From positions 124,001 to 188,000 of the forward strand of contig JAAFKA010000007.1 of NCBI GenBank assembly GCA_013299115.1: a stretch of 64,000 nucleotides of DNA. The letters run 5' to 3'. Below the pieces are notes generated by a model. The model did no database searches. It saw nothing but the letters and a program-made list of their open reading frames with translations, and was not told the origin of the DNA. This stretch comes from Cytophagales bacterium. GTDB lineage: Bacteria > Bacteroidota > Bacteroidia > Cytophagales > Thermoflexibacteraceae. The translations under genes were made by a program, and so were the position numbers. Positions 3,664-61,936 of the stretch are shown here, one piece after another; the first letter of the stretch is position 1; every line of letters starts with the position of its first letter.

Positions 3664-3697
3664 TTGCAAAAACTTTTACCAACTATTCGTATCTTTG
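3664..3697 (+). promoter_or_regulatory. Bacteroidota-type promoter of ATPase copy 1
   Basis: TTG at 3664-3666, a 23-bp gap, then TATCTTTG at 3690-3697, matching TTG-N17-23-TAnnTTTG. It lies 20 bp before the ATG, so the leader is very short. Confidence 0.55.
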
Positions 3698-3717
3698 CAA
3701 AAAATAGATTTTCGTTT

Positions 3718-5262
3718 ATGAAAGAATTATCCTTACCTCTCAACGATTTTGCTGATGTGATAGAAGGCAATCGTATTTATGTGGACAAAACAATGTTTTT
3801 GTCGCCTTTAATTCAAAAAAAAGGCTTTTATTTCCTTTCCCGTCCTCGCCGTTTTGGTAAGTCGTTGCTGTTGAGTACCTTGAAATACATTTTTAAAGGT
3901 CGCAAAGAGTTGTTTAAGGGTTTGTATATAGAAGACAAAATTGAGTGGAAAACTTACCCTGTCATTCATTTAGATTTTTTGAATATCAGCTATAAGGATA
4001 CCACTTTGGCAAAAGGGCTGAAAAGTTATTTGCATGACGAAGCCGAAAAAGAAAATATAGTGCTGACCAAAGATTCTCCGCGAGAGTTATTAAAAGAACT
4101 TATTATAAAGCTGAAAGCAAAATACAATCAAAATGTGGTGATTCTGATAGACGAATATGACAAAAGTATTGTGGATTACATAGACGAGCCAGCCCAGGCT
4201 ACAATCAATCGTGATACGCTAAAAAATTTCTTCGGAACATTGAAAGGCATGACCGTCGATTTGCAATTTATTTTTCTCACAGGAGTTTCCAAATTTTCCA
4301 AAGTTTCTTTGTTTTCTGACCTCAATAATTTGGTGGATTTAACTCTTGATAAAAATTATACAACCCTGTTGGGTTATACACAAGAAGAAATAGAAAGCTA
4401 TTTTGCAGATTATTTGGAGAAGTATTGTGTAGAAAAAAATATGACCTTAACTGAATTATTGGCAGAAATCAAAAGATGGTACAACGGCTATTCGTGGGAC
4501 AGTATAAACAAAGTCTATAATCCCTACTCAATTCTCAACTTTTTGTATAGTGGCGAATTTCTTAACCATTGGTTTAGCACAGGCACGCCAACGATGGTTG
4601 TAAAATTGTTGAATAGAAAGTATATAGAAGACTTTAAAGATGTGTCCTTAGATATTTTTGAGTTAGAGAGGTATGATATTACCCAAATAGAAAAACATTT
4701 AGTTTCTTTGCTTTTCCAAACAGGCTACTTGACAATAACAAAAAAAGTAGATGCCGAAACATTTTTGCTCAACTATCCCAACAAAGAAGTACGAGATTCT
4801 TTCAATTCTTTTCGGGTTGCCGACTATATTGAGGGTGATGTGAGCCTTAGCAGGTTGAAATATAACCTCAAAACCAGCTTACACGAGGGTAAGATGGATT
4901 TGTTTGTAGAAAATTTGACTATTTTATTTGCCCAAATTCCCTACCAAATAGTAATACCTAATCGGGAGGCTTATTATCAGTTGATAATTTATTTGACGTT
5001 GAAAATTTTAGGTTTAGAAATTATTGCTGAAGAAAACACCAACAAAGGTAGGATTGATGCCATTATTTTTGTTTCCGACTACATTTACATCATAGAATTT
5101 AAGTTTTCGAGTAGCACCAAACAGGCTTTGTTGCAAATCAAAGACAAAAAATATTACGAAAAGTACCTTGCCGATAGCCGACAAATTTGTTTGGTAGGCA
5201 TGAACTTTGATTACGAAAACCGCACTGTAATTGAGTGTGTGATGGAGAAAATAGAGAAATAA
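3718..5262 (+). CDS. AAA-ATPase-like / PD-(D/E)XK nuclease family protein, copy 1
   Basis: 514 residues from the ATG at 3718. The N-terminus carries YVDKTMF and the P-loop-like SRPRRFGKSLLLS (about 40-52), then VVILIDEYDK as the Walker B segment. These are hallmarks of the AAA-ATPase-like family that ends in a PD-(D/E)XK nuclease-like domain (AAA_9/DUF1703 type). The C-terminal GRIDAIIF...YIIEFKFS gives the D...ExK core near residues 445-465. The family is abundant in gut and aquatic Bacteroidota, often in many copies; its biological role is not established. It differs from copy 2 by Gln instead of Lys at residue 469. An upstream TTG start is possible, but the ATG coincides with the duplicated boundary and is preferred. 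Confidence 0.85.
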   Translation: MKELSLPLNDFADVIEGNRIYVDKTMFLSPLIQKKGFYFLSRPRRFGKSLLLSTLKYIFKGRKELFKGLYIEDKIEWKTYPVIHLDFLNISYKDTTLAKGLKSYLHDEAEKENIVLTKDSPRELLKELIIKLKAKYNQNVVILIDEYDKSIVDYIDEPAQATINRDTLKNFFGTLKGMTVDLQFIFLTGVSKFSKVSLFSDLNNLVDLTLDKNYTTLLGYTQEEIESYFADYLEKYCVEKNMTLTELLAEIKRWYNGYSWDSINKVYNPYSILNFLYSGEFLNHWFSTGTPTMVVKLLNRKYIEDFKDVSLDIFELERYDITQIEKHLVSLLFQTGYLTITKKVDAETFLLNYPNKEVRDSFNSFRVADYIEGDVSLSRLKYNLKTSLHEGKMDLFVENLTILFAQIPYQIVIPNREAYYQLIIYLTLKILGLEIIAEENTNKGRIDAIIFVSDYIYIIEFKFSSSTKQALLQIKDKKYYEKYLADSRQICLVGMNFDYENRTVIECVMEKIEK

Positions 5263-5306
5263 TTTTTGTTTTTTGCTGTTTCTTTACCCTCAAAGGAGTC
5301 GATAGA

Positions 5307-5343
5307 CCCTGCCAATAGTTTATTTGACAAACCGTTGGCAGGG
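5307..5343 (+). terminator. hairpin between the two ATPase copies
   Basis: CCCTGCCAA (5307-5315) pairs with TTGGCAGGG (5335-5343): a 9-bp stem with a 19-nt loop and no strong T-run after it. The left flank GATAGACCCTGCCAATAGTT resembles 46627-46645, so this may be a repeat remnant as well as a terminator. Confidence 0.35.
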
Positions 5344-5372
5344 CTTGTAATTCCTTTAAGGTTGTTGTTTTG

Positions 5373-5400
5373 TTGTTTACAGCAAAATCCTCTATCTTTG
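5373..5400 (+). promoter_or_regulatory. promoter of ATPase copy 2
   Basis: TTG at 5373-5375, a 17-bp gap, TATCTTTG at 5393-5400, then the same 20-bp leader as copy 1. The -33 box lies in unduplicated DNA, so the two copies share the -7 box but have different upstream halves. Confidence 0.55.
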
Positions 5401-5420
5401 CAAAAAATAGATTTTCGTTT

Positions 5421-6965
5421 ATGAAAGAATTATCCTTACCTCTCAACGATTTTGCTGATGTGATAGAAGGCAATCGTATTTATGTGGACAAAACAATGTT
5501 TTTGTCGCCTTTAATTCAAAAAAAAGGCTTTTATTTCCTTTCCCGTCCTCGCCGTTTTGGTAAGTCGTTGCTGTTGAGTACCTTGAAATACATTTTTAAA
5601 GGTCGCAAAGAGTTGTTTAAGGGTTTGTATATAGAAGACAAAATTGAGTGGAAAACTTACCCTGTCATTCATTTAGATTTTTTGAATATCAGCTATAAGG
5701 ATACCACTTTGGCAAAAGGGCTGAAAAGTTATTTGCATGACGAAGCCGAAAAAGAAAATATAGTGCTGACCAAAGATTCTCCGCGAGAGTTATTAAAAGA
5801 ACTTATTATAAAGCTGAAAGCAAAATACAATCAAAATGTGGTGATTCTGATAGACGAATATGACAAAAGTATTGTGGATTACATAGACGAGCCAGCCCAG
5901 GCTACAATCAATCGTGATACGCTAAAAAATTTCTTCGGAACATTGAAAGGCATGACCGTCGATTTGCAATTTATTTTTCTCACAGGAGTTTCCAAATTTT
6001 CCAAAGTTTCTTTGTTTTCTGACCTCAATAATTTGGTGGATTTAACTCTTGATAAAAATTATACAACCCTGTTGGGTTATACACAAGAAGAAATAGAAAG
6101 CTATTTTGCAGATTATTTGGAGAAGTATTGTGTAGAAAAAAATATGACCTTAACTGAATTATTGGCAGAAATCAAAAGATGGTACAACGGCTATTCGTGG
6201 GACAGTATAAACAAAGTCTATAATCCCTACTCAATTCTCAACTTTTTGTATAGTGGCGAATTTCTTAACCATTGGTTTAGCACAGGCACGCCAACGATGG
6301 TTGTAAAATTGTTGAATAGAAAGTATATAGAAGACTTTAAAGATGTGTCCTTAGATATTTTTGAGTTAGAGAGGTATGATATTACCCAAATAGAAAAACA
6401 TTTAGTTTCTTTGCTTTTCCAAACAGGCTACTTGACAATAACAAAAAAAGTAGATGCCGAAACATTTTTGCTCAACTATCCCAACAAAGAAGTACGAGAT
6501 TCTTTCAATTCTTTTCGGGTTGCCGACTATATTGAGGGTGATGTGAGCCTTAGCAGGTTGAAATATAACCTCAAAACCAGCTTACACGAGGGTAAGATGG
6601 ATTTGTTTGTAGAAAATTTGACTATTTTATTTGCCCAAATTCCCTACCAAATAGTAATACCTAATCGGGAGGCTTATTATCAGTTGATAATTTACTTGAC
6701 GTTGAAAATTTTAGGCTTAGAAATTATTGCCGAAGAAAACACCAACAAAGGTAGGATTGATGCCATTATTTTTGTTTCCGACTACATTTACATCATAGAA
6801 TTTAAGTTTTCGAGTAGCACCAAAAAGGCACTGTTGCAAATCAAAGACAAAAAATATTATGAAAAGTACCTTGCCGATAGCCGACAAATTTGTTTGGTAG
6901 GCATGAACTTTGATTACGAAAACCGCACTGTAATTGAGTGTGTGATGGAGAAAATAGAAAAATAA
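5421..6965 (+). CDS. AAA-ATPase-like / PD-(D/E)XK nuclease family protein, copy 2
   Basis: 514 residues, same length and domain order as copy 1: P-loop-like RPRRFGKS, Walker B ILIDEYDK and a C-terminal D...EFK nuclease-like core. Only residue 469 differs (Lys here). The gene is intact, with its own promoter. Both copies lie behind the Roco gene on the same strand, but a functional link is inference only. It is followed by asd, which also has its own promoter. Confidence 0.85.
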   Translation: MKELSLPLNDFADVIEGNRIYVDKTMFLSPLIQKKGFYFLSRPRRFGKSLLLSTLKYIFKGRKELFKGLYIEDKIEWKTYPVIHLDFLNISYKDTTLAKGLKSYLHDEAEKENIVLTKDSPRELLKELIIKLKAKYNQNVVILIDEYDKSIVDYIDEPAQATINRDTLKNFFGTLKGMTVDLQFIFLTGVSKFSKVSLFSDLNNLVDLTLDKNYTTLLGYTQEEIESYFADYLEKYCVEKNMTLTELLAEIKRWYNGYSWDSINKVYNPYSILNFLYSGEFLNHWFSTGTPTMVVKLLNRKYIEDFKDVSLDIFELERYDITQIEKHLVSLLFQTGYLTITKKVDAETFLLNYPNKEVRDSFNSFRVADYIEGDVSLSRLKYNLKTSLHEGKMDLFVENLTILFAQIPYQIVIPNREAYYQLIIYLTLKILGLEIIAEENTNKGRIDAIIFVSDYIYIIEFKFSSSTKKALLQIKDKKYYEKYLADSRQICLVGMNFDYENRTVIECVMEKIEK

Positions 6966-11397: not shown

Positions 11398-11465
11398 AAC
11401 TTGGTTAAAATTTATGATATGGTACATTTGCCTTAAATAAATACTCGAAATTAAACAAATCTTAT

Positions 11466-11582
11466 TAGAGGTTATTAAGATTTGTACCGTACCCTTTGGC
11501 GGGGGTTGCCTCCAACTGCAAGGTAAATTAGTTGAAAATCAACAAGTTAATTTTCTGTACAAAATTATTGTAATAACCTCTA
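11466..11582 (+). mobile_element. MITE-like element, copy 2 of 5
   Basis: 117 bp, TA-bounded, ends GAGGTTATTAAGAT and ATTGTAATAACCTC. Same body as copy 1 with a few substitutions (one base shorter). It lies between the start of the secreted-protein gene and the end of the dedA gene; next to it ATTTCTTGCA and TGCAAGAAAT (about 11585-11611) form another small hairpin. Confidence 0.65.
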
Positions 11583-11707
11583 TTATTTCTTGCAATTTTT
11601 ATGCAAGAAATAACCTATTAGTGGACTACGTAAAAAATAAAAAAAGGTTGGATTTAAGCAACAGAAAATTATCTAATCTAAGACCAAACCTTAAAATTTG
11701 CAACTAT

Positions 11708-13576: not shown

Positions 13577-13624
13577 ACAACCTCGCAGCCGTTGAACAAT
13601 AATAGCCCTACGTGCAACGTAGGG
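13577..13624 (+). repeat. short copy of the CAACCTCGAAG / CCCTACGTGCAACGTAGGG repeat
   Basis: Decayed arm CAACCTCGCAGCCGTTGAAC followed by AATAATAGCCCTACGTGCA and ACGTAGGG. It belongs to the family seen in expanded form at 46812, 56560 and 60912. It is followed at 13646-13661 by a TTCGTCTTTAGGCGAA palindrome. Confidence 0.6.
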
Positions 13625-26530: not shown

Positions 26531-26745
26531 CCTAAGCAGCCCCGCTTAATAGCATTGAACTTTAGTCCAATGCTATTAGGCGGGGCTGCCTAAGCTAAGA
26601 AGTTATTTTTAAGTGGGGCTACCTAAGTGCCGTAGGCACGAAATATTTATAGTAAGCTATACTCCTCAACTCCGCTAAGTGCCGTAGCAGTTCCACTGCG
26701 GGCAAAATATATCGTACCTACGGTGCTTAGCGGAGTGGGGCTACG
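26531..26745. repeat. palindromic repeat cluster upstream of glycogen synthase
   Basis: 26531-26593 is a long hairpin: CCTAAGCAGCCCCGCTTAAT with AGCATTG, inverted as CAATGCTATTAGGCGGGG and CTGCCTAAG around an ACTTTAGTC core. 26614-26745 contains CTAAGTGCCGTAGGCACGAA and decayed inverted counterparts (CTACGGTGCTTAGCGGAG). The 26354-26530 stretch has no visible feature. Confidence 0.6.
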
Positions 26746-46430: not shown

Positions 46431-46656
46431 AAAAATAAGTGTGGAATAGGTATATGATATGCAGAACTAATGTAAAATTCAAATAAATTTCAAGGCAATA
46501 AAGTGCGTGGAATGTCGTCATTTTTATTGCTTTCAATTTAATACTTTCAATAGTATTGTAAGGTATCGTTATAATCTTCTCTTCTTTTGTTTTGGAAACT
46601 ACTTTTGATAAAATTGGCAGTGGTCGATAGAACCTGCCAATAGTTATTTTTTTGAA
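46431..46656. other. spacer without gene
   Basis: AT-rich, no gene. Near 46620-46645 GTCGATAGAACCTGCCAATA repeats the flank of the hairpin at 5299-5320. Confidence 0.4.
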
Positions 46657-46774
46657 TAGAGGTTATTACGATAATGTTTGTATAGAAAATTAACTTGTTG
46701 ATTTTCAGCTAATTGACCTTGCAGTTGGAGGCAACCCCCGCCAAAGGGTACGGTACAAATCGTAATAACCTCTA
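46657..46774 (-). mobile_element. MITE-like element, copy 3 of 5 (inverted)
   Basis: 118 bp in the opposite orientation to the other copies, TA-bounded, with terminal GAGGTTATTACGAT and ATCGTAATAACCTC perfect inverted repeats. It lies beside the 75-bp tandem array. Confidence 0.7.
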
Positions 46775-46811
46775 TGGAAGGTTATTTTTAACTATTTACA
46801 GGGTCTATCGA

Positions 46812-46980
46812 CCCTATGTGCAACGTAGGGAAACTTTTGCAATGTGAAACCTCCTTTGCAACCTCGAAGGGGTTGAACAATAATAGCCCTATGTGCAACG
46901 TAGGGAAACTTTTGCAATGTGAAACCTCCTTTGCAACCCCGAAGGGGTTGAACAACAATAGCCCTACGTGCAACGTAGGG
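46812..46980. repeat. 75-bp tandem repeat (about 2.25 units)
   Basis: Units start at 46812, 46887 and 46962. Each runs CCCTATGTGCAACGTAGGG, AAACTTTTGCAATGTGAAAC, CTCCTTTGCAACC, then the hairpin arm CCTCGAAGGGGTTGAAC and AATAATAG. It belongs to the CCCTACGTGCAACGTAGGG family and sits just past the dipeptidase stop. Confidence 0.8.
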
Positions 46981-50523: not shown

Positions 50524-50564
50524 CCTGTAACATCATTTGTTTTTGAGTAAAATAAAAAGCTTAT

Positions 50565-50682
50565 TAGAGGTTATTACGATTTGTACCGTACCCTTTGGCG
50601 GGGGTTGCCTCCAACTGCAAGGTCAATTAGCAGAAAATCAACAAGTTAATTTTCTATACAAAAATTATCGTAATAACCTCTA
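50565..50682 (+). mobile_element. MITE-like element, copy 4 of 5
   Basis: 118 bp, TA-bounded, perfect ends GAGGTTATTACGAT/ATCGTAATAACCTC. The 5-bp flank TTATTAG matches that of copy 2. Confidence 0.7.
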
Positions 50683-50687
50683 TTACT

Positions 50688-50754
50688 ATTTTGTCATTCT
50701 GAGCATAGCGAAGAATCCGACTCAGATTCTTTGCTATACTCAGAATGACAAAAT
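50688..50754. repeat. TTTTGTCATTCTGAGC hairpin repeat
   Basis: 30-bp stem (50688-50717 with 50725-50754, two mismatches), 7-nt loop, just downstream of guaB. The same family with a perfect 29-bp stem is at 54291-54353. Probably doubles as a terminator for convergent genes. Confidence 0.7.
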
Positions 50755-54658: not shown

Positions 54659-54690
54659 ATATGCCTATGTTTGGCATATCTCTTTTTTTT
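54659..54690 (+). promoter_or_regulatory. terminator-like hairpin just before rho (possible attenuator)
   Basis: ATATGCC (54659-54665) pairs with GGCATAT (54673-54679), 7-nt loop, followed by CTC and eight T residues (54683-54690). The run ends 7 bp before the rho ATG. Shape and position are those of an intrinsic terminator in a leader. Confidence 0.55.
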
Positions 54691-54697
54691 AATTGTT

Positions 54698-56476
54698 ATG
54701 TACACCATCGAAGAATTAAACGTCAGATTAATCTCAGAACTCAAAGCCATAGCTGATGAGTTAGGCGTGAAAGACACCGCCAAGTTTTCAAAGAAAGAAC
54801 TGGTCTATAAAATTTTAGACCAACAGGCTATTTTGCCCGAATCTGCCCTCCCTAAAAAAATAGCTGCCACCCCGCCTCCCAAAGTAGAAGTGGCAAAAAC
54901 AGAGGAAGACAAAGACAAGAAAAGAAGCCGTATCAGACGTGAAAACGTCAAGGAAGTAGCCGAAGAGCTTACGCCTTTCGACAATATTCCCGACGAACAG
55001 TTGGAGTTTGACAGTAAGGTAGAGGAAATAGAAGAACTTGCTACGATTAGCCCCGTAGAACCTTTGGAAATGGTGGTAGAGCCTTATGTGCTGAAAGAAC
55101 CTACACACAAAGAGCCAAAAGAGAAAGAAGTGGTAGCAAAAGAACACCGCGAACACAACAGCGAAAGCTACAACAGGGAAAACCGAAATCGAGAGAACCA
55201 AAACAGGGAAAATAGGGAAAATCAAAACAGGGAAAACCCCAATAAAGAAAACCCAAACAGGGAAACAGGCAACAAAGAAAATTACAATTCGACTTACCAA
55301 GAAAATAAGTTTCAACGCAATAATAATAATAATAACAACAGAAAGAATCAAGGTCGTGAGTTCGATGGCGTTATTCTCAATGAAGGTGTGCTTGAAATTA
55401 TGACTGATGGCTATGGTTTTTTGCGTTCTCCTGATTACAATTATTTGGCAAGTCCCGATGATATTTATGTTTCGCCTTCGCAAATCAAATTGTTTGGTTT
55501 GAAAACAGGCGACACTGTAAAAGGACAAATTCGCCCACCAAAAGAAGGCGAAAAATATTTTGCTCTTTTGCGTGTAGAAACTGTAAACGGCAAAACGACA
55601 GACGAAATCAGGGACAGAGTGCCTTTTGAGTATCTTACGCCTCTTTTTCCAGAGGAAAAACTGAATTTGACTTGGAAACCCAGCGAATATTCTACACGTA
55701 TCCTCGACCTTTTTGCTCCCATTGGCAAAGGGCAACGTGGTATGATTGTGGCACAACCCAAGACTGGTAAAACGACTTTGCTCAAAGAAATTGCAAACGC
55801 CATAGCCCATAATCACCCCGAAGTGTATTTGTTGGTGTTGCTCATAGACGAAAGACCAGAGGAAGTTACCGACATGGCTCGCAGTGTGAAAGCCGAAGTA
55901 ATAGCCTCTACTTTTGACGAACAGGCAGAAAGGCACGTAAAAGTGGCAAGTATTGTACTGGAAAAAGCCAAAAGATTGGTAGAATGTGGGCATGATGTCG
56001 TGATTTTGCTCGACTCTATCACCAGACTTGCACGTGCTTACAATACCGTAGTGCCTTCATCAGGCAAAATCTTGTCGGGTGGTGTAGATGCCAATGCCTT
56101 GCACAAACCCAAAAGATTTTTTGGTGCTGCCCGCAACGTAGAAAATGGCGGTTCTCTCACCATTATTGCAACGGCTTTGATAGAAACAGGCTCGAAAATG
56201 GACGAAGTTATTTTTGAGGAGTTTAAAGGTACAGGCAACATGGAGTTGCAACTTGACCGCAAATTGGCGAACAAAAGAGTATATCCTGCCATTGACATTC
56301 CTGCTTCGGGTACTCGTAAAGAAGACTTGCTACTCGACAAGATGGATATGCAGAAAATTTGGATACTCCGCAAATATATGGCTGACATGACTTCAAACGA
56401 AGCCATTGAGTTTTTGCTCTCCAACATGAAGGGAACAAAAGACAATGAGGAGTTTTTAAATTCAATGAAGAATTAA
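54698..56476 (+). CDS. rho: transcription termination factor Rho
   Basis: 592 residues from the ATG at 54698. N-terminal Rho helix domain ([20 protein letters not shown]), then a disordered insert (about 60-225) with an Asn/Arg/Glu-rich core (repeats of NREN, about 155-195), an OB-fold RNA-binding domain ([20 protein letters not shown]), and a RecA-like ATPase: Walker A QPKTGKTT at about 352-359, [18 protein letters not shown]-loop [15 protein letters not shown]-loop [12 protein letters not shown]. Hexameric RNA helicase that ends transcription. The E. coli protein is 419 residues; the extra length is the insert, known in Bacteroidota. Confidence 0.96.
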
Positions 56477-56498
56477 GATAGTAAAACAAAGGGCTGTC

Positions 56499-56840
56499 CA
56501 AAAAGTAAGATTACATCACAGGACAAAAGTCCAATTCAATTAAGCTAAGAAAGTATATTTACAACCTCGAAGAGCAATTCCATGTGGGTTGAACAATAAT
56601 AGCCCTACGTGCAACGTAGGGAAGTATTTGCAAATGTGCATCCAACCTCGAAGAGGTTGAACAATGACATGTTGCTATACGAATGTTCAACCCCTTCGGG
56701 GTTGTAGAGTATTCTTGTACCTTTTTCCCTACGTTGCACGTAGGGCTATTGTTGTTCAACCTCTTCGAGGTTGTAGTTTATTTATTAGCTTAACAGCATT
56801 GAATTAAAGCCTGTGATATAACTCTACTTTTTGGACATTT
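56499..56840. repeat. composite palindromic element with inverted outer ends, copy A
   Basis: Outer ends GTCCAAAAAGTA (56499) and TACTTTTTGGAC (about 56826-56837) are inverted, as are CATCACAGG and CCTGTGATA. Inside are CCCTACGTGCAACGTAGGG on the left and its inverse on the right. The core is left arm 56642-56663, centre 56664-56683 (ATGACATGTTGCTATACGAA), right arm 56684-56704. Left flank GGGAAGTATTTGCAAATGTG, right flank GTTGTAGAGTATTCTTGTAC. Confidence 0.8.
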
Positions 56841-57051
56841 CTAATTCAATCCAAGTATTGCTTGTGTTTCCACTCAAAAACTTTTCATCAACCTTATCCA
56901 GAGTAGCCTCGAAAATCTGAAATTGAAAAAGCAAAGTAGCATAATAACCAAACAGATTATTAACAGCGTTGAATTGAAGTTGGCAATTTTTAAAACATAT
57001 TGGCAGATGAAATAAGTTACCAAACCTTCTATTGTACCTAACCCATAACTT

Positions 57052-57417
57052 ATATACGATGCTTACAATAGCCAAGCAAACATACATAATTTGGGTGCTT
57101 ATCAATCAAAAATATTGCAATTTCAAAAACTTATTGACGAGTTTTATATAGGAGAAAAAAGTCCAATTTTTTATGCCGAAAAAATGAATATCACGACCAA
57201 ACACCTCAACAGAATATGCAAAACAACCTTAGATAAAACCGCAACTGCCCTGATATACGAGAGAATACTATTGGAGGCTAAGAGGTTGTTGGTTCATGCA
57301 GACTTGTCTATCAATGAAATAGCTGATAGGTTGGGTTATTTGGATAACAGCCATTTTGCCAATTTTTTCAAGAAAAATACAACCATGACAGCTTCAGAAT
57401 TTAGGGATAGGTTTTAA
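57052..57417 (+). pseudogene. AraC-type DNA-binding domain, N-terminus lost
   Basis: The frame holds only the C-terminal AraC HTH pair: FYAEKMNITTKHLNRICKTT, then ILLEAKRLLVHADLSINEIA and FANFFKKNTTMTASEFR. A TAA at 57046 closes the frame just upstream and there is no ATG before the domain (the first is inside HTH1). The usual 170-180-residue sensing domain is missing; the region upstream to the repeat at 56840 has no recognisable remains of it. Probably a decayed regulator. Confidence 0.65.
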
Positions 57418-57448
57418 ATGAGTGGACAAATTTAACAGAAACTATTTT

Positions 57449-57883
57449 TTATAATGTTTCAGTAAATACGCTATCTACAGCCTCCCATAATTCTACTTTG
57501 TTCCCCTCGGGGTCAAGAATATGCACAAATTTACCGTAGTCGTAGGTTTCTATGTTGTCTAAAACCGTTACTCCACTGGCTTTTAGTTGCCCTACCAAAC
57601 CTTCTATGTTTTGCACTCGATAATTAATCATAAATTCTTTGGTTGAAGGGCTGAAATAAGGGCTACCTTTGGGAAACACACTCCACTGAAGGTGGTTAAT
57701 TTCCTCTGGTTTGTCTAAGTTTCTAAACGAAAACATAGCCCCATAGTCATCGGTTTTCAGCCCCAGATGCTGGCTGTACCATGCTTTGGTTGTTTCCACT
57801 TGTTCGGCAAAGAAAAAAATGCCGCCGATGCCTATTACTTTTGGCACAAGCGGAGTAGTTTCGGTTGAGCTGGTTTGTTCCAT
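57449..57883 (-). CDS. VOC (glyoxalase-like) family protein
   Basis: 144 residues, two VOC halves: GIGGIFFFAEQVETTKAWYS, HLGLKTDDYGAMF, then VHILDPEGNKVELWEAVD, whose Glu is the usual last metal ligand. The first ligand position (GIGGIFF) lacks His, so it may bind metal poorly or act as a resistance/binding protein. Start 21 bp from the next gene's stop; same unit as the CCG gene and mreC. Confidence 0.82.
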   Translation of the reverse strand: MEQTSSTETTPLVPKVIGIGGIFFFAEQVETTKAWYSQHLGLKTDDYGAMFSFRNLDKPEEINHLQWSVFPKGSPYFSPSTKEFMINYRVQNIEGLVGQLKASGVTVLDNIETYDYGKFVHILDPEGNKVELWEAVDSVFTETL

Positions 57884-57904
57884 TTTTTGAGATGATTTTG
57901 GTTT

Positions 57905-58684
57905 TTATAAAGCTTCTGCCAACAATTCAGCCAAGTCATAGACTTTGACCTCTGCCTCTTTATTTTTGTTTTTCATACCGTCGGAGAGCATAGTCATACA
58001 AAACGGACAACCTACGGCTACCATTTTTGCTCCTGTTTCTAAGGCTTCTTCTGTTCTTTCTATGTTCACTTCTTTGTGTCCATGCTCTGCCTCCTTAAAC
58101 ATTTGCGCACCACCTGCCCCGCAACAGAGTCCTTTTGCTTTTGCCCGTTTCATCTCCACTAACTCCATATCTAAGGCTTCTATCAAGGCTCTTGGGGCTT
58201 CGTACACCTCATTTGCCCTACCTAAATAACAGGAGTCATGAAAAGTAATGCGTTTGCCTTTAAAATTACCGCCACCTTGCAAGGTAACTTTGCCCGCATC
58301 TATGAGTTGTTGCAAAAATTGGGAGTGGTGCAGCACTTCATAGTTGCCACCCAAAGCAGGATATTCATTTTTTAAAGTGTTGAAACAATGCGGACAGGCA
58401 GATACAATTTTCTTGATGCCGTAGCCATTCAAAACCTGAATATTATTGACTGCTTGCATCTGAAACAGAAATTCGTTGCCTGCACGTTTGGCGGGGTCGC
58501 CAGTGCAAGACTCTTCAGTGCCTAAAACCGCAAATTTTGTCCCTGTGTGGTTGAGAATTTTGACAAAGGCTGCCGTTACTTTTTTGTATCTATCGTCAAA
58601 AGAGCCTGCACAACCCACCCAAAACAATACTTCGGGGCTTTCATTTTTGGCAGCTAATTCTGCCATTGTTGGTATTTTTAACAT
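57905..58684 (-). CDS. CCG-domain (Fe-S)-binding protein
   Basis: 259 residues. Two cysteine-rich CCG modules: WVGCAGSFDDRY with VSACPHCFNTLKNEYP, and GLCCGAGGAQMFKE with VGCPFCMTMLSDG. This is the catalytic subunit type of heterodisulfide reductase, GlcF and LutA, binding an unusual [4Fe-4S] cluster. The companion ferredoxin-type subunit usually found next to it is not in this window. Probably an electron-transfer oxidoreductase; substrate unknown. Its start is 20 bp after the mreC stop. Confidence 0.85.
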   Translation of the reverse strand: MLKIPTMAELAAKNESPEVLFWVGCAGSFDDRYKKVTAAFVKILNHTGTKFAVLGTEESCTGDPAKRAGNEFLFQMQAVNNIQVLNGYGIKKIVSACPHCFNTLKNEYPALGGNYEVLHHSQFLQQLIDAGKVTLQGGGNFKGKRITFHDSCYLGRANEVYEAPRALIEALDMELVEMKRAKAKGLCCGAGGAQMFKEAEHGHKEVNIERTEEALETGAKMVAVGCPFCMTMLSDGMKNKNKEAEVKVYDLAELLAEAL

Positions 58685-58704
58685 AAGACAAGGATTTTTA
58701 TATT

Positions 58705-59532
58705 TTATTTATTACCTAATTTTTCGGCACTTTGCTGCAAAGAGTCTATTTCTGGTTGCTTGCTATTTTTTAAGACGTAAACGTAAGACAAGCTACTAAA
58801 ATTAGTGCTTAATTTCAAAGTAATATCCAAATTTGTATTTTCAATAGTTTTTTTGACTGCCAACACCGTACCTACCATATAATTTTCGGGGTAGGTGGTG
58901 TTAAAGCCACTTGTCAAAATTGTATCACCTACCTGCACAGGTATATGGCGTGGCACATACAGCACTTGGGCTTTGTCGGGTGCTTTCATTGCCCATTTAG
59001 TAAAACAAGTGGTTTTGCTCTTCTTTAAAGTGGAAGACACCATAATGTCGGAGTGCAAAATCGAATACAGAATAGAAAAATTTGGTGAACAACTTTTTAC
59101 TTTGCCTACCACGCCATCTGTGGTAATTACGCCCATGCCTACCTTGATGCCATCATCACTTCCCTTGTTGATAGTGATATAATTATTGCTATAAATCAAG
59201 GAGTTGTTAATCACTTTGGCTGTAATAAACTCAAATTGCGAGGCTACTTTTGGGCTTACATTTAGCGGAATAGGAATACGCTGATTAACCAACTGCTCAC
59301 GCAAAAGTGCATTTTCGGCTGCCAATTTGCTGTTTACTTCTTTCAAGGCTACATAAGCTGTGGTAGCCGTATAGACACTGTATAAGCCTCCTGTGAGTTC
59401 TTGCATGGTCGTAAAGGCAATAGCTCGTTGGAAACTATTGTTTTGAACTACCAAAAATATACTTACTAACTCCAAACCTAAGAAAGTAAGCAATATACGA
59501 TACTGAAGAAGTAACTCTATGAGCTGACGCAT
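58705..59532 (-). CDS. mreC: rod shape-determining protein MreC
   Basis: 275 residues. One N-terminal membrane helix (ILLTFLGLELVSIFLVVQNN), a coiled coil (LKEVNSKLAAENALLREQLV), then the periplasmic beta domain (VINNSLIYSNNYITINKGSD, VGMGVITTDGVVGKVKSCSP) and VGDTILTSGFNTTYPENYMV. It links cytoskeletal MreB to cell-wall synthases. mreB does not lie upstream nor mreD downstream, unlike the usual mreBCD order. Confidence 0.9.
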   Translation of the reverse strand: MRQLIELLLQYRILLTFLGLELVSIFLVVQNNSFQRAIAFTTMQELTGGLYSVYTATTAYVALKEVNSKLAAENALLREQLVNQRIPIPLNVSPKVASQFEFITAKVINNSLIYSNNYITINKGSDDGIKVGMGVITTDGVVGKVKSCSPNFSILYSILHSDIMVSSTLKKSKTTCFTKWAMKAPDKAQVLYVPRHIPVQVGDTILTSGFNTTYPENYMVGTVLAVKKTIENTNLDITLKLSTNFSSLSYVYVLKNSKQPEIDSLQQSAEKLGNK

Positions 59533-59589
59533 GATATAACAAAATGAGTATTTGATTTATCAAACACTCACACAACAAATTTTCAACCC

Positions 59590-59619
59590 CAAAGTTAATG
59601 AATACAGTGAAAATACAAA
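59590..59619 (-). promoter_or_regulatory. mreC promoter
   Basis: Minus strand: TTTG at 59619-59616, 18-bp gap, TAACTTTG at 59597-59590, 57 bp before the ATG. A TATTTGATTTATCAAA palindrome lies at about 59551-59566 in the leader. Confidence 0.55.
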
Positions 59620-59828
59620 AGAGTTTGAAAATAATTAGTAAATTCTCATCTTCAAGATGCTATTGTTAGCCAGAAATTAGGTGCTGGTGATACAGAATTA
59701 TCAAAGTATAAAGTGATGAATGTTGAGAGGGGAGGAAACGGAAAAGTAAGTATTTTTTCAGGCAAAGAAAAATCAAAAACAAAATGATTGAAAGTTTGTA
59801 AAAAATTATACCTTTGTTTGCAAAAGAA

Positions 59829-59932
59829 TAGAGGTTATTACAATTTGTGCCGTACCCTTTAGGGTGCAAGGTCAATTAGTTGAAAATCAATAAGTTAGTT
59901 TTTCATAAAAAAAATTATCGTCATAACCTCTA
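59829..59932 (+). mobile_element. MITE-like element, copy 5 of 5, internally deleted
   Basis: 104 bp. The ends GAGGTTATTACAAT and ATCGTCATAACCTC are kept, but the GGCGGGGGTTGCCTCC hairpin part of the body is replaced by AGGG. TA-bounded. Confidence 0.65.
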
Positions 59933-59983
59933 ATAACAACCTGATTTTTATTGTATTTAAGCACATTATTTTATTTGCAAGAT

Positions 59984-60601
59984 ATGAACTATACAGCCTT
60001 ACTAAAAGACGAACTTGCTTCGTTGGCAACTTATTTTAATGCCAATGAATTGGCATATTTGGCTCTTACTGCCAAAATAGAACAGCCTTTGCGTGAAAAA
60101 ATAGCCTATCGGTTGCAACAACGCATTACAGCCGAAAATCCTGACCTCTATTGTGCAAGGGAATGGCACGATACAGATATTGCTTTGATAGACAAAGAGG
60201 GCAATGTAAACCGTATTGTGCTTATCAAGTCGGGCTATACGGCAGACGAAACCAATATGAATGCAAGTATGGTGGGCTTTTATCCCAAAAAAATTATAGA
60301 TGATTTGCGGAAAACTGCCGAGTTAGGTGGCAACGAAACCAAATATTTTGCGTTATTGTTCTATACGCACATAGACAAGCCCGTGCCTGCACACCTAAAA
60401 AAAATAGTGAAACACGACAATTCATTGAATAGGGCATTTAAGCAACAAAATGCAGCCCAAATTATAGAAGAAGCACAAGGCTATATCAATCATTTTTTCG
60501 AGCAGCACCGCATCACTACCGAACAAGGCTGCATAGAAGCAGGGCAGTGTTGGGATATTGAGGTAAAAATTTATTATTGGTTTATGGAACTGAGCTTGTA
60601 G
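59984..60601 (+). CDS. protein of unknown function
   Basis: 205 residues from the ATG at 59984. No signal peptide or membrane helix. The segment EWHDTDIALIDKEGNVNRIV and LIKSGYTAD gives an Asp...strand...xxK layout weakly reminiscent of PD-(D/E)XK folds, but the ExK Glu is absent. Aromatic residues are common and it ends KIYYWFMELSL. It stands alone between a MITE-like element and a 670-bp repeat block. Function not assigned. Confidence 0.6.
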   Translation: MNYTALLKDELASLATYFNANELAYLALTAKIEQPLREKIAYRLQQRITAENPDLYCAREWHDTDIALIDKEGNVNRIVLIKSGYTADETNMNASMVGFYPKKIIDDLRKTAELGGNETKYFALLFYTHIDKPVPAHLKKIVKHDNSLNRAFKQQNAAQIIEEAQGYINHFFEQHRITTEQGCIEAGQCWDIEVKIYYWFMELSL

Positions 60602-61273
60602 AACAGACTTTAGTCGAATGCTGTTCGGCTAAGAAAGTAGATGATAAATTTTGTAATTATTTGATTATCAATTAGTTGAATTTATTAAGTTCCGATAGGA
60701 CAATTTCATTGCGGACAACATATTTATAGAAAAAACAAGACCCAACTCCCTCAAAGTGCCGTAGGCACGAAATATTTCGTGCCTACGGCACTTTGAAAGA
60801 TGAGAGAACGGCGTTACTATAAATATTTCGTGCCTACGGCACTAAAAACAGCTGTTCTTAGCTTAACAGCATTGGACTAAAGTCCAATGCTGTTAAGCTA
60901 AGAACAACTCACAACCTCGAAGAGGTTGAACAACAATAGCCCTACGTGCAACGTAGGGAAGTATTTGCAAATGTGCATCCAACCCCGAAGGGGTTGAACA
61001 TTCGTGTAGCAATATGTCATTGTTCAACCTCTTCGGGGTTGTGGAGTAGCCTTGCACCTTTTTCCCTATGTTACACGTAGGGCTAATTGTTCAACCTCTT
61101 CGAGGTTGTAAATATGATTCCTTAGCTTAATAGCATTGGACTTTAGTCGGAGACGCCTAGTCCGTTCACTTTTATGGCATAAAAATTTGATTTTTAGATG
61201 CCAAAAATGCTTTTAAGGTTGATATAACCAAAAAAAACGGACTAAAGTCCGTTCTACAGTAAATTTATTATAC
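60602..61273. repeat. repeat block with long palindromes and composite element copy B
   Basis: No gene. 60752-60795 is a perfect 44-bp palindrome (CAAAGTGCCGTAGGCACGAA and its inverse). 60820-60842 is a half copy. 60854-60905 is a 25-bp perfect stem with a 2-nt loop around GGACTAAAGTCC. 60912-61110 is the composite element: left arm 60979-61000, centre 61001-61020 (TTCGTGTAGCAATATGTCAT), right arm 61021-61041. ACTTTAGTC dyads flank it at 60604, 61139 and 61239. Confidence 0.8.
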
Positions 61274-61936
61274 ATGAAAAACATCAATTCTTTTAGTGAT
61301 TTACTCCAATTTTTGCTCAATGCCGATGAAATTATCAGCGAGGGCGGATTAGCTGCCATTTGCCTGATAGTGTTTGCCGAAACAGGACTATTTTTCTGTT
61401 TTTTTCTCCCAGGTGATTACTTGCTATTTTTAGCGGGGGTCTTGTGTGCTACCCATATTTTAAAAGTTAATATCATCATTTTGACTGTTGCCATTTTTTT
61501 GGCAGCTATTTTGGGCAATTTTACAGCCTATTTTTTCGGCAAAAGCGTAGGCGAGGCACTGTATCAACGCCCCGACTCCTTCTTTTTCAAGAAAAGATAT
61601 ATCAAAAGCACCAGAGAATTTTTTAACAAATATGGTGGCAACTCCTTGATAATTGGTCGTTTTTTGCCAATCATTCGCACTTTTGCCCCTATTTTGGCAG
61701 GAACAGCCCAAATGGACATTAAGCTATTCACAAAATACAATCTGATAGGTGGCTTTTTGTGGTCTTTTGGTTTGGTGTTGAGTGGTTTCTTTTTAGGCTA
61801 TGAATTTCCACAAATCATAGAGTATATTCAATACATCATTTTGTTCTTTTTAGGCGTAACTTCGTTTACTGTTATCAAAGCCTATTTGAAAATTCGCAAA
61901 GAACAAAAAGCAGAAGAACAAAGCAATGAAAGTTAA
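61274..61936 (+). CDS. DedA family membrane protein (second paralogue)
   Basis: 220 residues. FAETGLFFCFFLPGDYLLFL, AILGNFTAYFFGKSVGEALY and GRFLPIIRTFAPILAGTAQM are the DedA signature segments, including the re-entrant loop with its basic and proline residues. Its stop overlaps the next start by 11 bp, so translation of the two is coupled. It differs from the DedA at 11708, so these are two distant paralogues. Confidence 0.9.
   Translation: MKNINSFSDLLQFLLNADEIISEGGLAAICLIVFAETGLFFCFFLPGDYLLFLAGVLCATHILKVNIIILTVAIFLAAILGNFTAYFFGKSVGEALYQRPDSFFFKKRYIKSTREFFNKYGGNSLIIGRFLPIIRTFAPILAGTAQMDIKLFTKYNLIGGFLWSFGLVLSGFFLGYEFPQIIEYIQYIILFFLGVTSFTVIKAYLKIRKEQKAEEQSNES

Follow-up and report, generated by a model that had tools for sequence, protein, structure and literature searches.

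How can two copies of one repeat carry the same short central segment in opposite orientations when their flanks run in the same direction? The question is raised by a stretch of 64,000 nucleotides from a Cytophagales bacterium (C67:124001-188000 in a genome of 5.5 Mb and 74 contigs), hereafter the window, in which a preliminary description had placed two such elements at 56642-61041 and read them as a possible invertible segment or hairpin-mediated flip. Taking the evidence as a whole, we favour with moderate confidence the explanation that the elements are pairs of repetitive extragenic palindromic (REP) units of a HuH protein, similar to bacterial interspersed mosaic elements (BIMEs), and that their centre occasionally inverts at the inner hairpin arms, here called p2, that enclose it.

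The centre reads ATGACATGTTGCTATACGAA at 56664-56683 and TTCGTGTAGCAATATGTCAT at 61001-61020; the two are in opposite orientation, being reverse complements at 18 of 20 positions (two mismatches). The flanks are collinear, as had been described: the left flank GGGAAGTATTTGCAAATGTG is exact at both 56619-56638 and 60956-60975 (two window matches at up to three mismatches, 0.02 expected), and the arms outside the inverted block are collinear too. A repeat finder independently pairs 56643-56704 with 60980-61041 as an inverted match of 62 nt, 95% complementary. Since each p2 arm is a palindrome in its own right, the inverted reading extends over the entire p2-centre-p2 block, and breakpoints within the p2 arms fit the sequence as well as breakpoints at the edges of the centre. 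The elements do lie where they had been placed but are larger (approximately 56528-56811 and 60880-61149), and both are found between open reading frames (ORFs) of at least 100 aa.

Each element is a composite of two units of approximately 90 bp that face each other around a centre of 20-23 bp. The order within a unit is p1 hairpin, AAC..AATAR linker, hairpin A, a spacer of 21-26 nt, p2 hairpin, and AAC; read from the outside inward, the composite has a T arm, p1, AACAAYAATAG, A, spacer, p2, AACA, and the centre, followed by the mirror image. Hairpin p1 is 17 nt long (CAACCYC-GAA-GRGGTTG), as is p2, and hairpin A is CCCTACG-TGCAA-CGTAGGG. In the window copies, the spacer measures 21-22 nt and is of X type on one side and Y type on the other, with the p2 hairpins inside. 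As single-stranded DNA, each copy is predicted to fold into one long hairpin with the centre as its apical loop (-73.4 and -74.8 kcal/mol, z -17.3 and -16.6). The members of this repeat family in the window are as follows.

56528..56811, no strand, composite copy 1 (BIME-like), with outermost T arms at 56528-56551 and 56785-56811
56562..56591, plus, copy 1 outer hairpin p1 of the X half, split by a 13-nt insert at 56574-56586
56600..56621, plus, copy 1 hairpin A of the X half, 7-bp stem and loop TGCAA, preceded by AATAG
56622..56642, plus, copy 1 spacer X
56643..56659, plus, copy 1 inner hairpin p2 of the X half, CAACCTC-GAA-GAGGTTG, then AACA
56664..56683, plus, copy 1 centre (loop), forward relative to the X half
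56688..56704, minus, copy 1 inner hairpin p2 of the Y half
56705..56726, minus, copy 1 spacer Y
56727..56748, minus, copy 1 hairpin A of the Y half
56757..56773, minus, copy 1 outer hairpin p1 of the Y half
60880..61149, no strand, composite copy 2 (BIME-like), outermost T arms included
60912..60928, plus, copy 2 outer hairpin p1 of the X half
60937..60958, plus, copy 2 hairpin A of the X half
60959..60979, plus, copy 2 spacer X
60980..60996, plus, copy 2 inner hairpin p2 of the X half
61001..61020, minus, copy 2 centre (loop), inverted relative to copy 1
61025..61041, minus, copy 2 inner hairpin p2 of the Y half
61042..61063, minus, copy 2 spacer Y
61064..61085, minus, copy 2 hairpin A of the Y half, stem with two substitutions
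61092..61108, minus, copy 2 outer hairpin p1 of the Y half
13603..13624, plus, lone A hairpin after a degenerate p
46859..46980, plus, two p-A units in tandem

Is this difference peculiar to two copies, or does it run through the family? The A unit has 138 matches within three mismatches in the 5.5 Mb (reversed control 0), some of them in tandem p-A arrays and in inverted pairs, and the exact p2-N-p2 pattern occurs at 29 places in this genome. We took stretches around 100 listed of the 138 A units and around two further p2-N-p2 centres (degenerate composites elsewhere may be missing) and assigned the X and Y sides by hand. With the centre read as ATGAC.., 32 composites could be typed: 14 have X on the left and Y on the right, 12 have Y on the left and X on the right, five have like halves (three Y/Y, one X2/X2, one X2/X), and one is truncated. 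The 32 exclude L110, whose centre is degraded; L116 and L117, which share flanks, may be one duplicated locus counted twice. If X2 is counted as X, 26 of the 31 untruncated composites still pair X with Y, the outcome expected if centres invert in place. The centres fall into 20-bp (17 matches), 21-bp (5), and diverged 23-bp forms; both orientations occur within the 20-bp and within the 23-bp centres, and each recurs on several contigs. The window copies are separate loci, one from each orientation group, and in the assembled sequence no locus appeared in both states. The alternative raised at the outset, that the two are independent insertions and all other copies share one orientation, is therefore borne out in its first part and contradicted in its second by the 14 and 12 composites above.

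Outside this genome, the same centre or A unit was found in none of 38 other genomes and none of 58 relatives, and no p2-N-p2 centre of any kind in the 58 relatives; an exact-pattern scan of genome contigs, which perhaps did not include the genome itself, also gave no match. In the congener G001, the region 3' of rho, read by eye, is without the composite, and orientation at one locus is therefore not comparable.

To follow orientation through the family, we used a core tree of the 26 X/Y composites (129 columns from A, the spacers, and p2, with the centre left out). It needs four orientation changes (bootstrap range 4-5), two of them forced by starred (well-supported) branches, and its best-supported split is that of three X2-spacer rows, which hold both orientations. 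A single origin of the flip was rejected for these 26 composites (p-AU 0.017), and orientation has thus changed more than once in the history of the family. A tree of all arms (six changes, p-AU 8.5e-5) was not relied on. Close copies nevertheless agree: those with the 21-bp centre share one orientation in five of five cases, as do those with the X' spacer (five of five, two of them perhaps one duplicated locus). Because they agree, flips recur but more slowly than the elements are copied, and the process is slow recurrent inversion and not a fast switch. The centre has indeed flipped relative to collinear flanks, as first proposed, but the same agreement leaves the invertible switch proposed with it unsupported; a phase switch was set aside, since orientation follows descent on the core tree.

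The orientation of the other loops was counted at 49 loci of the genome and in window positions 1-53990, with each hairpin oriented by its neighbours. The p loops (n = 176) are GAA in 169, GCA in four, and AAA in three, and never TTC; the A loops (n = 104) are TGCAA in 87, TGAAA in 15, TGTAA in one, and the flipped TTTCA in one, that is, 103 of 104 unflipped. T-arm loops (n = 40) are TT in 26, AA in 12, and other in two. Because the orientation of the p and A loops is nearly invariant, these hairpins are probably read strand-specifically, and the centre and T arms are probably not. The contrast between loops that hardly flip and a centre that does would mark the parts that a protein may read in this way; for the TnpA_REP of E. 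coli (TnpA_Ec), the available text of PMC8266576 gives single-strand recognition of REP and not of iREP.

Which protein might that be? The preliminary description had suggested a search for a TnpA-REP-like enzyme, and one is present. The genome has three Y1_Tnp matches; the gene at C35:23100-23543 (148 aa; PF01797, E 1.4e-19) lies inside arrays of p-A units on both sides, with inverted pairs among them, whereas the other two matches have no units within 700 bp. A low-copy tnpA gene flanked by its units, with dispersed copies elsewhere, is what is called a REPtron. The protein has the motifs DHIH, WQ, and YIKNQETHH, its invariant tyrosine is at position 114, and Table 1 of PMC6006769 has a row for TnpA_Y1 subclass 1.2 with 148 aa, DH[IV]H, WQ, YIKNQKEHH, and REP 'no'; by motif, the protein appears to fit this subclass. 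Its profile matches eight solved sequences, all of them named as transposases, including ISHp608, and the NCBIfam IS200 model gives it 54 bits, just under the cut-off of 55.

If the units belong to this protein, one might expect to see them beside its relatives. The best 80 of 560 relatives were kept (39-59% identity, 79 named loci), and hairpins were counted near the gene (within 600 bp, 90 kb in all) and far from it (beyond 1500 bp, 199 kb). There are 40 p hairpins near (23 loci) and none far, and 42 A hairpins near (26 loci) and two far (two loci); reversed-motif controls and shuffles gave none for either. The A-hairpin motif, its loop pattern, and a stricter linker rule were framed after the data had been seen, although the contrast between near and far does not follow from that. 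Under a looser rule, a two-hairpin unit is found within 700 bp at 24 of 49 loci at 50% identity or more, seven of 13 at 45-50%, and two of 17 below that, with five far matches and none in shuffles; some matches are of another kind. The simple patterns DHxH, WQxGY, and YxxNQxxHH are all present in 42 of the 79 relatives, and some of the remaining 37 are partial matches.

The units are also dispersed in other genomes. AATAR followed by hairpin A (one mismatch allowed) has matches in 16 of 24 chosen, non-random genomes (reversed control 0), in 14 of these 16 outside the gene's own locus by coordinates, and none in the other eight, which include G001, G045, and G030. Two Algoriphagus genomes, two of Belliella, and one of Chryseobacterium have p1-linker-A or p1-linker-A-spacer-p2 units away from the gene; an Algoriphagus genome has inverted pairs (L305, L307), with p2 inside in L307. 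By the stricter rule, the layout is seen mainly in Bacteroidota records and at three loci labelled Verrucomicrobia (L207, L224) and Phycisphaerae (L230), whose host is open to doubt because all come from metagenome-assembled genomes.

We read these results as follows. A unit of the X subtype and one of the Y subtype face each other, and when a strand folds into a single long hairpin, the 20-23-bp linker between them would be its loop. The HuH (Y1_Tnp) protein, whose gene lies elsewhere in the genome, is probably the enzyme to which these units belong as cognate REPs and by which they were spread. As for the flip, its likeliest cause would be that the 21-bp inverted p2-AACA arms recombine with each other or that the polymerase switches template from one to the other; either event would turn the centre now and then, and the flipped form would then be copied along. 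The inversion is confined between inverted arms, as loop inversion by template switching requires. In yeast, template switching between short inverted repeats is reported to invert spacers and homogenise arms (PMC8604942). Recurrent flipping of hairpin loops in chloroplasts is cited in PMC3123225, which reports no stem-loop link for its own bird cases. Two composites, X2-C23-X2 and Y-C20-Y, are adjacent at C35 ~7.0-7.2 kb. A single inversion at the p2 arms with which they face each other would yield X2-C23-Y, which is how L185 is built (its 23-mer is identical), and X2-C20-Y. This one locus, read by eye, suggests that inverted p2 arms recombine at ~100 bp distance too.

Several findings nevertheless count against this explanation. 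Template switching should also leave homogenised arms, and here they are so only in part: the p2 arms differ between the halves in 12 of 26 composites (alike in 12, untyped in two). The 15 X/Y composites with a 20-bp centre fit a single flip (p-AU 0.805); only the two changes on starred branches of the 26-row tree are forced, one of these two depends on the three X2 rows, whose spacer differs, and the bootstrap has not settled. Outer p1 variants move between copies and so distort the all-arms tree, and halves also recombine between copies, as the five like-half composites among 31 indicate, which could give apparent flips. As for the enzyme, other hairpins crowd around its relatives too (all those with a 7-bp stem and a 3-nt loop: 202 near, 21 far), and units are not at every relative: 33 of 79 loci have the two-hairpin unit by the loose rule and 17 of 79 by the stricter one (0 of 79 in the reversed control). 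Of the 30 loci in the first RAYT set, the stricter rule picks out one, that of the gene itself; p palindromes occur at three others, L140, L141, and L163. In the two best matches of that set, G045 (56%) and G030 (49%), such palindromes lie next to the gene, but the strict unit is absent and the A pattern is matched nowhere.

What other routes could lead to the same picture? Whole halves (X for Y) might have been exchanged between dispersed composites by recombination or gene conversion, with no inversion of the centre in place. We consider this unlikely, though it is the strongest of the alternatives: the Y-C-Y (3), X2-C-X2 (1), and X2-C-X (1) composites among the 31 speak for it, as do outer p1 variants and a 14-bp insert common to otherwise unlike composites, but free exchange of 30 X and 32 Y halves should leave about half of the pairs alike, and 26 of 31 consist of an X and a Y half (a comparison clouded by the relatedness of the copies). 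We find it improbable that the centre is inverted by the HuH (TnpA-like) protein in the course of processing single-stranded p2 hairpins. In favour of this, hairpins like those around the gene stand at either end of the centre, and the near-invariance of the p and A loops is what a strand-specific reader would produce. Y1 enzymes, however, cut one strand at a guide-placed site and inversion needs both, and no cleavage site or footprint was identified for the candidate protein.

A site-specific invertase acting on p2-AACA as recombination sites, that is, phase variation, would account for inverted 21-bp arms around a small segment and for both orientations, and yet we regard it as very improbable. 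Close copies share orientation; the centre, only 20-23 bp long, has a sequence that varies from group to group and is situated between ORFs in each of the window copies; and the recombinase looked for at the suggestion of the preliminary description was absent from the eight neighbouring window ORFs scanned (two of them without a Pfam family), a genome-wide invertase search not having been made. Misassembly of a nested palindrome from short reads comes to mind with 74 contigs and multi-copy, nearly palindromic elements, but it is scarcely credible here: the X-side p2 is CTC/GAG in all 13 typed X/Y composites (one of 14 untyped) versus three of 12 Y/X composites, so that orientation tracks substitutions in the arms; each orientation is on several contigs; and the block from A to A is under 110 bp in complete composites. 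Between these alternatives and inversion at the p2 arms, we prefer the latter. A bolder form of it, which we hold to be improbable, is that HuH proteins of subclass 1.2 actively mobilise a REP peculiar to them, built of several hairpins (p1-AATAR-A-spacer-p2), that their single-strand processing of the inner hairpins inverts the linker, and that each BIME is in effect a cassette that inverts slowly and passes on its current state when copied.

Some details of the composite are of interest in their own right. The 14-bp insert GCAATTCCATTGTG occurs at the same site in many p hairpins (e.g., L099, L114, L115, L118, L122), once in an inner p (L115), and within a different hairpin in the congener G001 (L190, L192, L195); the 13-nt insert of window copy 1 (56574-56586) is one base shorter. 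This distribution suggests a very small insert that either targets hairpins or is spread by conversion. The 23-bp centres (e.g., L088, L126, L184) have GGTGCAA or a near form after AACAAT, resembling by eye a decayed linker and hairpin A, and the centre may be what is left of another unit. T-T palindromes lie at 26544-26581 and 60861-60898, and the short GACT-TT-AGTC core of the T arms occurs in both orientations. An element of ~290 bp at 60596-60885 has the same T ends and other inner hairpins; it takes most of the 99 match rows from G001. In window positions 56000-61600, Rfam 15 has no match at the gathering score and four below it, at the T palindrome near 60860-60900.

The window also holds repeats of other kinds. 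A direct repeat at 3664-6965 (1703-bp spacing, 300 nt at 100% identity) lies within adjacent ORFs of 532 and 531 aa, and 12 copies at 66-bp spacing lie inside a 969-aa ORF (909-1934). The Rho-like gene at 54671-56476 (PF07497, PF00006) has short repeats at 55157-55279, and another dispersed repeat of ~120 bp is found in direct and inverted copies at 598-725, 11463-11589, 46650-46793, 50546-50689, and 59823-59939.

With which known systems should the element be compared? We read it as a BIME of REP type for which the accessible text of the open PMC literature, including PMC11194056, offers no published assignment, and the repeats appear to belong to a HuH transposase-like group tabulated without a partner REP. 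As in the REP, BIME, and REPtron systems of TnpA_REP (RAYT), in the portions available of PMC6006769, PMC8266576, PMC2817692, and PMC3733652, the units are short, palindromic, and numerous, two subtypes form inverted heterodimers around a linker (two inverse units in 31 untruncated composites here), and the units cluster at a low-copy HuH Y1 gene; the intergenic position typical of REPs is taken from the two window copies. The differences are that a unit here has two to three hairpins, that the orientation of the linker varies, and that the protein is by motif of subclass 1.2, tabulated with REP 'no' in PMC6006769. The 5' tetranucleotide of REPs, most often GTAG, is absent: hairpin A is preceded by AATAG here and by AATAG, AATAA, and a few AGTAG in others, and AATAR is at best an analogue of GTAG. 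With subclass 1.2 as tabulated there, the protein shares its 148 aa, DH[IV]H, WQ, and YIKNQ..HH, but its gene and many relatives at or above ~45% identity are flanked by hairpin units, whereas the published entry has no REP association. If the assignment holds, a HuH group close to the IS200 transposases gains a candidate substrate.

Miniature inverted-repeat transposable elements with terminal inverted repeats offer a further comparison, in that the outermost T arms are common to the composite and the ~290-bp congener repeat; a target-site duplication and a matching transposase are not established here. The inversion itself most resembles those of chloroplast hairpin loops (PMC3123225) and of template switching in yeast (PMC8604942), in which, as far as the available text of these papers goes, a loop between inverted arms also flips, and more than once. 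Here, however, the arms are units of a dispersed repeat family, and flipped forms are therefore multiplied by copying. The flip is probably ordinary in mechanism and would be a bacterial counterpart of the small hairpin-loop inversions of chloroplasts; the less ordinary part is probably a candidate REP unit for a HuH group published without one.

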